From Terriglobia bacterium (GTDB lineage Bacteria; Acidobacteriota; Terriglobia; Bryobacterales; Bryobacteraceae), in assembly GCA_020073615.1 (NCBI GenBank), contig JAIQEX010000054.1, positions 1-41,479 of the forward strand: 41,479 nt of DNA, given 5' to 3'. The notes beneath the pieces were generated by a model, which made no database searches, was not told where the DNA came from, and saw only the letters and a list, made by a program, of their open reading frames with translations. This document shows positions 21,414-25,247 of the stretch, piece by piece. Positions within the stretch are counted from its first letter, which is position 1, and every line of letters begins with the position of its first letter. The translations under genes and the position numbers were made by a program.

Positions 21414-22313
21414 CTAGGCCTTGCGGCGGCGCACCACCATGGCCATGGCCAGAAGGCCGCCGCCCATCAACAGCAGCGTGGCCGGCTCGGGCGTCGCGTT
21501 GAGGGTGGTCACGGTCCACTCGGCTGGGGGAGTGAGGAATTGACCCGGGTTGGCGGGATCGGGCACGCCGTTGATCAGGTCGCTCAGCATGATCTGAAGG
21601 GGATCCCCCGTACTCAACGCGTCCCAGGCCACGATGCTTCCGGGATTGGCCTGATTGTCCGGTGTCAACACGAAAAGCCCGAAGGTATCGCCCGCGGAAA
21701 CCGGGACGATGAGGCCGCATGGGTTAGCATTGGGCGTAGAAACATCCGTGCACGCGATGCCGTCGAAGATGTTGACCTCCGTGAACGGGGAGTTACCCGT
21801 GCCCAGCAACGGGGGGGTGGTAAAGTCCTGACCGGCGGTGAGCACGTTCAAGCCAGCGATACCGATCGGAGTGCCCACCGGCGATTGGTTCGTAACGATG
21901 TAACCTGCCGGGTCCCAGAACGAGCCCGCGTCCGCGGTCTGGAACATCCAGTTCAGAAAAAGGAAGCCGTCGGTGGGGATGGTGGTGGTGATCATCGTCA
22001 GGGTTGCTTCAGCCGAGAAGCCGTCCCAACTGGCGCCGTCGCTGCCGACCACCCCGATTGATGGGGCGTCCGAAGCCTGGACGACGGCCGCCGCGTTGAA
22101 CCCCGTGAGAACCCCAAGCAGGGCCAGCATGGAGGCCTGATCCCCCACAGCCCCCGTGGCCGTGCCAGCCGTAGCCGGGACAGGAAGCGCGGGCGTGGGA
22201 GGGAGGAGTATGGTGGTGGCATAGGCGCAAGGGCCGCCCGCCAGAAGAACGGTTGCCAGAAGCAGAATCACGATCCGCCACGCGGCGGCGTGTTGGTGCA
22301 GTGCGTGTGCCAT
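21414..22313 (-). CDS. PEP-CTERM sorting domain protein
   Basis: This 299-residue exported protein has a signal peptide (WRIVILLLATVLLAGGPCAYA) and a C-terminal PEP-CTERM sorting signal (ATPEPATLLLMGGGLLAMAMVVRRRKA), which an exosortase/archaeosortase-type enzyme should process. The middle is Thr, Pro, Gly and Asp rich, beta-type, with no recognised enzyme motif. It probably becomes a surface or matrix protein. The exosortase gene is not in the window. The start at 22313 gives a standard signal peptide and has AAGGA upstream. An in-frame ATG at 22436 has a better GGGAGG site inside a leader shared with the peroxidase gene, but would add 41 residues that do not look like a signal peptide. Confidence 0.8.
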   Translation of the reverse strand: MAHALHQHAAAWRIVILLLATVLLAGGPCAYATTILLPPTPALPVPATAGTATGAVGDQASMLALLGVLTGFNAAAVVQASDAPSIGVVGSDGASWDGFSAEATLTMITTTIPTDGFLFLNWMFQTADAGSFWDPAGYIVTNQSPVGTPIGIAGLNVLTAGQDFTTPPLLGTGNSPFTEVNIFDGIACTDVSTPNANPCGLIVPVSAGDTFGLFVLTPDNQANPGSIVAWDALSTGDPLQIMLSDLINGVPDPANPGQFLTPPAEWTVTTLNATPEPATLLLMGGGLLAMAMVVRRRKA

Positions 22314-22436
22314 TGGTTCCTTCCCTAGAGAACAGAATTTAGGGTCTTGAGATCTGGTGACCCTATTAATCCACGAATAGTCTACTGCCGATTTACTTTG
22401 GTTAACAAGCGAAATTTTACGAATCGTTGACATCAT

Positions 22437-22557
22437 GGCGATAGGCCTCCCTAGTGGCCTTCTTTGAGGATAGGGCCGTCGTAAAAGGTGTTAAATCGCC
22501 GGAAGACGGTATTTCGACCATGGGGAACTACGGAGAGTACTACACGTCCTTTCCGTA
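22437..22557 (-). promoter_or_regulatory. Structured leader A (shared with leader B)
   Basis: Read on the minus strand, this segment has a TACGGA/TCCGTA hairpin (22557-22552 with 22534-22529), then CGAAATACCGTCTTCCG, then CCCTA...TAGGG pairing just at the GGGAGG ribosome site at about 22446-22451. The same parts occur in the same order and with nearly the same spacing in leader B at 22988-23090, in front of the divergent gene. It ends 9 bases before ATG 22436. Confidence 0.5.
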
Positions 22558-22742
22558 CCAAAAGGGTCTTCATGGCGGTACTGAATGAGGGCCAAGCAAT
22601 GATTCGGCAGGGTTTCCGGCCGTTGGGTGAGCACCACGCCACTATATATACATGTGGGTTGCCCCAAAGGGCAGGAGGACCGCCCCCACGGCCGGGGCAA
22701 GGCCGCCACATTGCCGGCGACCGCTCCGTCGAAGCCACGACC

Positions 22743-22758
22743 GTGAGAACGTGAGAAC
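22743..22758. repeat. Tandem 8-bp repeat
   Basis: GTGAGAAC occurs twice in direct succession (22743-22750, 22751-22758) just upstream of the palindromic element at 22775. Confidence 0.5.
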
Positions 22759-22774
22759 GAACCGCCCGGCAACT

Positions 22775-22845
22775 GGCAGGCGGCACCGCCTGCCCCACCA
22801 CTACAAAAAGGGCGCGCGTTTGGTGGCGCAGGCGGTGCCGCCTGT
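22775..22845. repeat. Nested palindromic repeat element
   Basis: Two hairpin-forming units face each other. Positions 22776-22800 and 22821-22845 are inverted copies matching at 23 of 25 bases. Each unit is itself a hairpin (for example GGCAGGCGG/CCGCCTGCC with a 2-base loop). Its design, a GCAGG...CCTGC hairpin beside a run of G or C, is like the larger element at 28130-28307. Confidence 0.7.
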
Positions 22846-22987
22846 GATCGGCGATTCTTCACGGTTCTGGGCCTGAGTGAGCGGTGAAAAAATCGGCAAG
22901 CTCATCCATGCCCCACCAGGACAGCCTGGAGTCATAGCCGCCGCGACCAAGTCCGCGGCCCAACGGGCTGCCAACACTCCCGAGAAC

Positions 22988-23090
22988 TACGGACTCGATT
23001 CCGTATCTTTTGGGGGCCGAAATGCCGTTTTCCGACAATTCAACGATTTAGCGGGCTGCCCTATGCTCAAGAAGACTTCTAGGGAGGTCA
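22988..23090 (+). promoter_or_regulatory. Structured leader B of the di-haem peroxidase gene
   Basis: A TACGGA/TCCGTA hairpin (22988-22993 with 23000-23005) is followed at the same distance as in leader A by CGAAATGCCGTTTTCCG. A CCCTA...TAGGG hairpin (23059-23063 with 23079-23084) then overlaps the AGGGAGG ribosome site. The loop carries CTCAAGAAG, close to CTCAAAGAAG in leader A. Pairing of the site with CCCTA could block translation. This is a candidate cis-acting RNA; ligand or protein partner unknown. Confidence 0.5.
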
Positions 23091-25247
23091 ATGGCTAATA
23101 TGTCAAAAAAGAGTAAACCTACTACATTTCTGAGATCCGCGGTATCGGCCGTCGCGCTGTTAGCCGGAACGGCCCACCTCGGTCTCGCACAAGTCATTCC
23201 ACCGGACCGTCCTCCGATTGTAAACGGCGGCCTGAACCTGATAACCGTACCGCTGCCGGATCTTACCGGAATCGTAGTGGACAGGCAAGCCGCGATCGTG
23301 CTGGGCAAGGCATTGTTCTGGGACCAGCAGGCGGGCAGCGACGGCATGGCATGCGCCAGTTGCCATTTCCACGCCGGCGCCGACAATCGCGTGAAGAACA
23401 CCATGGACCCGGGCCTGCGCCACACCGATCCGAACAAGCAGAACATTTGGAACCCGGTAGCCTCGGGCGGGCATGGCGGCCCCAACTATACCCTGACGCG
23501 GGCCGATTTTCCCTTCCACCAGTTGGCCACCGAGGACCGGGATTCGGCCATTGTGCATTCCACGGACGATATTGTCTCCTCGCAGGGCGTATTCCGCGCG
23601 GACTTCAACGGCATCAACCTGACCGGTCCCGCCAACCAGGCCGAGCAGTGCTCGGCGGCGCTTTCCTCCACTTTCAGCGTGGGCGGCATCAACGTCCGCC
23701 AGGTGGAGCCGCGCAACACCCCCACGGTGATCAATGCGGTGTTCAACTACCGCAACTTTTGGGACGGGCGCGCCAACAATATCTTCAACGGGCGGAACCC
23801 GTTCGGCCCGCGCGATCCAACCGCCGGCATCGACCCCTTCAACAGTGTGATGGTGTGGGACGGCGTCAGCCTGTCGCCGCTGCCCATCGCCCTTCCCGAT
23901 TCCAGCCTGGCCTCGCAGTCCGTCGGGCCCCCCGGCAGCAACCTGGAAATGTCCTGCAACAACCGGGTGTTCGAGCAGATCGGCCAAAAGCTGCTGCGTC
24001 AGAACCCCCTGGCCCTGCAGACCATCGCGGCCACCGACAGCGTGCTCGGCCCCTACGCCAACAAGATCACCGGCACTTCCATCGTCAAGGCGGGCATGTG
24101 GGACCCCATCACCAGGTCGCTGGCCAGCTACGAAACCCTGATCAAGCGGGCCTTCGCTCCCAAGTTCTGGAACTCGCCCATTCCGACGGGCGACAACTAC
24201 CGGCAGATCGAGAAGAACTTCTCGTTCTTCTGGGGCGTGTCCATCATGCTCTATGAATCCACGCTCGTCTCCGACAACACGCCCTTCGACCAGTACGCCA
24301 ATGGCAACATCAGCGCCCTGACCGCCCAGCAGACCCATGGCTTCTCGGTGTTCAACAACAACGGCGAGTGCGTCTTCTGCCACAAGGGCGCGGAGTTCAC
24401 CAGCGCGGCCACCAGCCTGAAGGAAGCCAACGCCGAGGGTACGCAGGTGGAGCACATGGCCATGGGCGACGGCACCGCCGCGCTCTACGACACGGGCTTC
24501 TACAACCTGGGCGTGACGCCCACGGCCGAAGACATCGGCAGCGGCGGCACCGATCCGTGGGGCAACCCGTTGAACTGGGCCCGGCAATTGAAGAACTATA
24601 TCGCGGCCAACGGCTGGAGCAGCCAGTACAACAACATCGGCCCCGACCACATCAGCGTGAACACCGCCCTGTTCCAGGTTCTGGCCCCGTTTAACGGGCT
24701 GGACGGCAATGCCCGCGATGCGGTGGACGGCAACATGAAGGTGCCCGACCTGCGCAACGTGGAGCTGACCGGACCGTTCTTCCACAACGGCGCCTACTCC
24801 ACGCTCGAGCAGGTGATGGACTTCTATGATCGCGGCGGCAACGGGCGGACGACCAACCCGCCGCCGGATTGTCTGCCCGCTCCGCCCCCGGGAGTGCCGT
24901 ATACGTTTCTGACTTGCAACGATGCCGCCAACACCACCGGTTTTGGCAGCAACGCGACCAATCGCGCGCCCTCGATTTTCCCGCTGAACCTCTCGGACGC
25001 GGATAAAGCGGCGCTGGTGGCCTTCCTGAAATCGCTGACCGACGAGCGGGTGCGCTGGGAGAAAGCGCCCTTCGACCACCCCTCGCTGAACGTACCGAAC
25101 GGCCACATGTTCAACGAATACCAGGTCCTGGCGAACGGCACCACCGGTTATGCCATGGACTACATTCTGGCGCTGCCCGCGGTGGGCGCGGCCGGCCGGA
25201 CGGCCGCCATGGGCCCGCTTCTGTCATTCGATGCGGGGCTGAAGTAA
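23091..25247 (+). CDS. Di-haem cytochrome c peroxidase/MauG-like exported protein
   Basis: This 718-residue protein has a signal peptide (about residues 12-33, ending GLAQ). Two c-type haem sites are visible: C88-A-S-C91-H92 and C427-V-F-C430-H431, the pattern of bacterial di-haem peroxidases and MauG. Family segments RNTPTVINAVFNYRNFWDGRA and the late VPDLRNVELTGPFFHNGAYSTLEQVMDFYDRGG support this. It is nearly twice the usual length of about 330-400 residues, with long insertions between and after the haems. It probably performs periplasmic or surface redox chemistry. The start is ATG 23091 or 23100. The PKD-domain protein follows after 52 bases, probably in the same transcript. Confidence 0.85.
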   Translation: MANMSKKSKPTTFLRSAVSAVALLAGTAHLGLAQVIPPDRPPIVNGGLNLITVPLPDLTGIVVDRQAAIVLGKALFWDQQAGSDGMACASCHFHAGADNRVKNTMDPGLRHTDPNKQNIWNPVASGGHGGPNYTLTRADFPFHQLATEDRDSAIVHSTDDIVSSQGVFRADFNGINLTGPANQAEQCSAALSSTFSVGGINVRQVEPRNTPTVINAVFNYRNFWDGRANNIFNGRNPFGPRDPTAGIDPFNSVMVWDGVSLSPLPIALPDSSLASQSVGPPGSNLEMSCNNRVFEQIGQKLLRQNPLALQTIAATDSVLGPYANKITGTSIVKAGMWDPITRSLASYETLIKRAFAPKFWNSPIPTGDNYRQIEKNFSFFWGVSIMLYESTLVSDNTPFDQYANGNISALTAQQTHGFSVFNNNGECVFCHKGAEFTSAATSLKEANAEGTQVEHMAMGDGTAALYDTGFYNLGVTPTAEDIGSGGTDPWGNPLNWARQLKNYIAANGWSSQYNNIGPDHISVNTALFQVLAPFNGLDGNARDAVDGNMKVPDLRNVELTGPFFHNGAYSTLEQVMDFYDRGGNGRTTNPPPDCLPAPPPGVPYTFLTCNDAANTTGFGSNATNRAPSIFPLNLSDADKAALVAFLKSLTDERVRWEKAPFDHPSLNVPNGHMFNEYQVLANGTTGYAMDYILALPAVGAAGRTAAMGPLLSFDAGLK

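Follow-up and report, generated by a model that had tools for sequence, protein, structure and literature searches.

A leader shared by two divergent genes of a Terriglobia bacterium, with two further copies before paralogous genes in a genome of another family

We analysed a stretch of 41,479 nucleotides from a Terriglobia bacterium, referred to below as the window. In the window, two genes face opposite ways across an intergenic region, one for a PEP-CTERM protein on the minus strand and one for a di-haem peroxidase on the plus strand, and each of them has a leader in front of it (A and B, respectively). The features of the locus, in plain order of coordinates, were as follows.

21414..22313, minus strand: PEP-CTERM gene behind leader A, counted from its likely own start at 22313
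22320..22344, minus strand: third CCCTA..TAGGGAAG pair (CCCTA-TAGGGAAGG), directly before the start at 22313
22431..22436, minus strand: ATGATG closing leader A; its second ATG (22433) aligns with that of B (ATGTCAA)
22446-22534, minus strand: leader A
22446..22475, minus strand: second block of leader A, CCCTAT..CTCAAAGAAG..CTAGGGAGG, containing the Shine-Dalgarno-like AGGGAGG (22446-22452)
22491..22534, minus strand: 44-nt conserved block of leader A, with ungapped identity of 30/44 to B and 33/44 to G273:C20 (a copy in another genome, described below)
23000-23087, plus strand: leader B
23000..23043, plus strand: 44-nt conserved block of leader B
23059..23087, plus strand: second block of leader B, CCCTAT..CTCAAGAAG..CTAGGGAGG, containing AGGGAGG (23081-23087)
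23091..25247, plus strand: di-haem peroxidase gene (CCP_MauG / MbnH-like, 718 aa) behind leader B

The peroxidase matched Pfam PF03150 (CCP_MauG, 4e-20) and NCBIfam TIGR04039 (1.1e-30, below the cut-off of TIGR04039). Its N-terminus looked signal-peptide-like by eye, and an alternative start at 23100 aligns with leader A. The closest peroxidase paralogues in the same genome, L200 (G000:C17) and L201 (G000:C191), were 73% and 61% identical. They lie within open frames of 1617 and 1770 codons, respectively, beside repeat-rich regions that resemble IPT/PKD-type domains (naming by eye). The leader was found at neither the C17 nor the C191 paralogue.

The PEP-CTERM product matched PF07589 (8.6e-06). 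Its open frame reaches 22436, which gives 340 aa from there. From residue 42 (MAHALHQHAAAWRIVILLLATVLLAGG) the frame looked signal-peptide-like by eye, and this second start, at 22313, has its own ribosome-binding site. Therefore the second ATG of leader A may precede the real start by 120 nt. We did not find any match to the PEP-CTERM gene at 1e-10 in 199 other genomes of the family, with at most the best 11 candidates per genome scored.

The site before 22313 repeats part of the vocabulary of the leaders. The pattern CCCTAN{8,24}TAGGGANG had 4 matches in the genome, 3 of them in this region, and the reversed pattern had 13. Counting both strands of 441 kb (the window plus a 400 kb sample), we found CTAGGGA at six sites, three of them here. 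Further, the 22313 site was similar to C107:12636 of the same genome (p = 0.005) and showed a looser, gapped similarity to leader B (p = 0.005); the A-C alignment in that comparison is trivial, because its two pieces overlap. The element CCCTAAATT..TAGGGAAGG was present in two copies in the genome, at 22319-22344 (minus strand) of the window and at G000:C107:12635-12658 (minus strand), and its pattern CCCTAAATTN{3,18}TAGGGAAGG did not occur in any of 256 other genomes searched in the order. A 24-nt GC-rich inverted repeat (CAGGCGGCACCGCCTGCCCCACCA, 22777-22844 of the window, 96% complementary) lies midway between the two divergent genes and resembles a dispersed palindromic repeat.

The original prediction had described the same named words in both leaders, and we confirmed them at their positions. 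CGAAATnCCGTnTTCCG was exact in A and B, 12 bases separated it from TCCGTA in both, and the CCCTA and TAGGG pair overlapped AGGGAGG in both. The best local alignment of A with B scored 52, far beyond chance, compared with a background mean of 16.4 (sd 2.8, maximum 49) obtained from as many as 4000 length-matched random pairs drawn from the window. This alignment was ungapped from TCCGTA to ATTYA and contained one gap beyond. The inverted similarity extended approximately 17 nt past the second ATG (arms 22416-22464 / 23069-23117, 71%), and identity along the alignment showed only mild clustering (p = 0.03 for window variance and p = 0.12 for runs). Judged from sequence comparison, leaders A and B are a real shared element, with putative functions. 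For copies related by duplication, function need not follow from kinship.

Searches for further copies were based on two covariance models, R1 (built from A and B) and R3 (built from A, B and C20); both models match the leader A block, and both were built from leader A among others. In the own genome (6.96 Mb draft, 252 contigs) R1 detected A and B at 110 and 108 bits. No third copy was found there with R1, and the next match had 13 bits (E = 5.6). We did not observe anything above chance with R1 in 249 other genomes of the order: matches at E <= 0.5 occurred in 28 other genomes, the best E of 0.004 is the chance level for about 250 genomes, and the best matches outside the leaders were poor alignments. 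Among 398 other genomes of the class, R1 gave one match at E <= 0.001. This match, G273:C20, scored 28 bits (E = 6.3e-4 per genome); G273 is a genome of the same class but a different family. The match is correctly oriented before CTAAGGAGG and a start codon. Approximately 0.25 matches of this grade are expected across 398 genomes, with rough calibration of the model, and RGGAGG with a start codon at that distance was present at 0.2% of sampled G273 positions. We therefore estimate that a chance match in such a place would have a probability of about 5e-4 (0.25 expected x 0.002), a value that carries the roughness of the E-value itself.

In 368 relatives of G273, with at most the best 11 candidates per genome scored, R3 detected a second copy, G273:C77, at 46 bits, while the other matches listed (E <= 0.05) reached at most 20.6 bits. 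The genome sets of the order, class and G273-relative searches overlap. With R1, a model built without G273, C77 scored 19 bits. C20 and C77 are paralogous, with 162 of 186 columns identical and with leader and gene start duplicated together; since C77 is a paralogue of C20, it mainly confirms C20 and adds little independent weight. Thus, of the search for copies that had been proposed, the part concerning related genomes yielded two copies in G273; no third copy was found in the own genome, and the matches in the order were at chance level. The core shared across copies was 44 nt. All four copies had constant orientation and distance upstream of genes, 96-101 nt from the start of the block to the aligned ATG (A 101, B 100, C20 96 and C77 101 nt); counted to the first ATG of each leader instead, the values were 98 nt for A and 91 nt for B.

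The protein encoded after C77 has 211 aa and includes a fibronectin type III domain (Pfam 3.7e-10; weak PHROG tail matches). Behind C20, the contig ends after the initial 28 codons of a close paralogue (89% identity across these 28 residues). At L268:2181-4869 (minus strand) the leader heads a cluster composed of the fibronectin-III-type protein, small ORFs, an endolysin-like ORF and a sigma/antiterminator-like ORF. The endolysin and the sigma-factor/antiterminator matches were both weak, and the cluster is possibly a phage-derived cassette. Upstream of the C20 leader (L238:240-620) we observed a dense array of ATCATGATC-like palindromic words. Leader B had no match in plasmids; the G273 leader matched nothing in phages and had a single 31-base match, attributed to chance, in plasmids, and the G273 protein had none in plasmids. 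Scans of viral contigs with pattern and protein gave no match.

The leaders had also been proposed as a regulon leader for exported proteins. This is not supported: two copies were found in 6.96 Mb, R3 gave none in 100 of 113 peroxidase-relative loci, some of which are short of upstream sequence, and the R1 matches in 249 other genomes of the order were at chance level.

Pairing positions had been said to be kept in the leaders while loops vary. We observed that the CCCTA/TAGGG arms are identical in A and B, which means no covariation, and that the loop is also mostly kept (12 of 17 columns). The spacer of the TACGGA/TCCGTA hairpin measures 17 nt in leader A and 6 nt in leader B, and the 5' TACGGA arms of this hairpin do not align. 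The words of this hairpin were seen in A and B only; the G273 copies read TCCGCA and ACCGCA, with no matching upstream partner detected by eye within 100 nt. When stem covariation was assessed in the four copies, CCCTA/TAGGG had 0 covarying pairs and 2 invariant ones, and 3 of its 5 pairs were broken in both G273 copies (14 of 20 cells paired, a count that depends on the MAFFT alignment). Folds of whole leaders were about as stable as those of shuffled sequences (z = 0.2, 0.9, 0.1 and -0.6 for the four copies), and consensus folds gave z = -1.3 (p = 0.11) for A and B and z = -1.7 (p = 0.06) for the four copies. Rfam 15 had 0 matches at gathering score in the whole window; below the cut-offs there were four weak matches (E 0.5-2.7) to miRNA, snoRNA and SgrS families, and none for G273 C20. 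A long-range CCGUY/RRCGG stem was rejected, with a pair probability of at most 0.11, and a pseudoknot was considered on paper and set aside. The proposed RNA hairpin is not supported, a verdict that holds as far as four sequences allow. Of the predicted cis-regulatory RNA or regulon leader, the shared leader is real and recurs before other genes; the structured RNA and the regulon are not supported.

An alternative hairpin covering the Shine-Dalgarno sequence weakly keeps the case for RNA alive. According to this explanation, the leader would be a structured 5' untranslated RNA which controls translation through a short stem over the Shine-Dalgarno (A, GGCC-ACUAGGGA-GGCC; B, GACUUC-UAGG-GAGGUC), perhaps in competition with CCCTA/TAGGG, and not through the earlier hairpin. 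Between A and B, one pair of the four-pair stem is changed in a compensatory way (G-C to A-U) and another on one side only. In the alignment of the short UTRs, folding was better than after shuffling of columns (p = 0.03). For B alone the short UTR gave z = -3.2 (p = 0.004), and 1.1% of 278 start regions reached this value. By eye, the 22313 site can form GUUC/GAAC around the same CUAGGGA, and RNAalifold gave another structure for the four copies, in which both sides differ at 3 of 15 pairs. However, the stem was picked post hoc and could not be made out by eye in either G273 copy, the short UTR of A alone gave z = -0.76, and 51% of the 278 crudely predicted start regions were at or below -9.0 kcal/mol, the value of leader A. 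The folds of whole leaders, the four-copy consensus and the Rfam result given above also speak against it. We consider such an RNA unlikely.

The leaders may also be non-functional relics of a duplicated fibronectin-III-type gene family, whose 5' ends would have stayed behind next to other genes. In that case leader A would still read into the truncated start of such a gene (MSTIRKISLVNQ...). Convincing copies were present in 2 genomes only, and in G273 leader and gene start were duplicated as one. The ATG-anchored peptide after leader A resembled the fibronectin-III-type N-terminus (p = 0.004; gapped, p = 0.035), a likeness that we treat as a lead and not as a result. However, the same peptide did not resemble the other G273 paralogue, L274 (p = 0.63), its free local alignment gave p = 0.09, and the anchored comparison for B gave p = 0.15. 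Further, both copies retain the Shine-Dalgarno as well as the ATG distance, and an intact gene stands directly after B. On this evidence a relic seems improbable.

Also improbable is a cis-regulatory element of an undescribed kind, whether RNA or DNA, which would be mobile between unrelated genes and lineages as a 100-bp start cassette complete with control block, Shine-Dalgarno and start codon.

A short upstream reading frame, that is a leader peptide coupled to the main gene, is very improbable: the favoured frame differs from pair to pair and none is significant overall, amino-acid tests of A versus B gave p = 0.04-0.13 before frame correction, by eye no Shine-Dalgarno precedes the putative leader-peptide ATG, Pfam, NCBIfam and PHROGs gave no match, and the 73-aa ORF had matches at E <= 0.01 in 5 of 256 other genomes of the order versus approximately 2.6 expected (best E = 0.001, three of the five from one genus). 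In its favour, one frame reads GRNTVFRRFN.. in A and GRNAVFRQFN.. in B (11 of 20 identical), with core changes mostly at third positions (4, 4, 9), and a different frame gives MV(E/Q)(I/F)P(S/F)SG(D/N)L for A, C20 and C77, with few second-position changes. Both a leader peptide and a duplicated small gene were rejected, as the evidence was weak.

Several candidate promoters and operators were assessed. A sigma-70 promoter, TTYAAC-17-TATnCT, was readable in A and B and was set aside, as the G273 copies are without the second hexamer. A palindromic operator, CGnAAnnC-n-GnnTTnCG, was attractive in A and B and was likewise set aside, the dyad in CGAAATnCCGTnTTCCG not being kept in G273. We did not find any -35/-10 pair or dyad common to all four copies, and the spacing between the blocks was, by eye, 22-23 nt in the G273 copies versus 16 nt in A and B. 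A promoter scan of 153 upstream regions of the own genome gave no signal above shuffles. Allowing up to 2 mismatches, CGAAATnCCGTnTTCCG had 24 matches in the own genome versus 8 for the backwards control. Among the 22 matches outside the leaders, 17 were inside genes (crude finder) and 5 were not, two of these five lying within 70 nt of a predicted start; none of the 22 was picked up by R1.

The sigma-54 consensus is TGGCAC-N5-TTGCA. RpoN (sigma-54)-dependent promoters of PEP-CTERM genes are reported for Aquincola (PMC9850573), and the gene behind leader A is likewise a PEP-CTERM gene. Unlike those promoters, A, C20 and C77 had no good match to the consensus (best 7, 6 and 6 of 11, with 368 nt upstream covered for leader A). 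The best match for leader B (8 of 11) was inside the GC-rich inverted repeat, 277 nt upstream.

We favour, with a probability of roughly 0.5, a small, sporadic shared start module, putatively a promoter/operator plus ribosome-binding site. On this reading, A and B would be two diverged head-to-head copies of one gene-start module of approximately 100 bp, with, in this order, a conserved block of 44 nt, a variable-length spacer, a strong Shine-Dalgarno and a start codon, and the same module precedes the two paralogous fibronectin-III-type genes in G273. The module would act as DNA, as a putative promoter/operator region followed by the ribosome-binding site. A regulator may bind the 44-nt block, and genes given a copy would share one transcription control. 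The copies presumably have a common descent, and they may have spread with the fibronectin-III-type gene family; the genomes searched gave no further convincing copy. A promoter/operator would account for a block that is conserved at a fixed distance from the start codon without folding, and the DNA reading is preferred mainly because the other readings are weaker.

Paralogous or co-regulated genes of bacteria can share a promoter and 5' UTR which were duplicated together with the gene. The present copies are like such shared upstream regions in that similarity runs from approximately -100 to the start codon and in that the G273 leader was duplicated with its gene start. They differ in that the two window genes and the G273 gene have no Pfam family in common. 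With riboswitches that sequester the Shine-Dalgarno, and with Rfam RNA leaders, they share a Shine-Dalgarno in a pairable region, but they have no Rfam match at cut-off, no significant consensus fold and no covariation in CCCTA/TAGGG.

To our knowledge, gene control in this bacterial group has been little studied. We did not find this leader described in the titles and abstract openings of the papers listed on PEP-CTERM and on Solibacter and Acidobacteria promoters, leaders and riboswitches. Ancient gene acquisition and duplication in Solibacter (PMC3174227) form a relevant background.

In summary, were the leaders relics, they would be an ordinary trace of duplication. If the shared module is functional, the PEP-CTERM surface protein would share one control with the di-haem peroxidase, both would be linked to a fibronectin-III-type gene of possible phage origin in another family, and the locus would offer a small, testable example of promoter/5'-region capture. 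Should the copies indeed travel as a start cassette, newly acquired surface genes would fall under one existing control.
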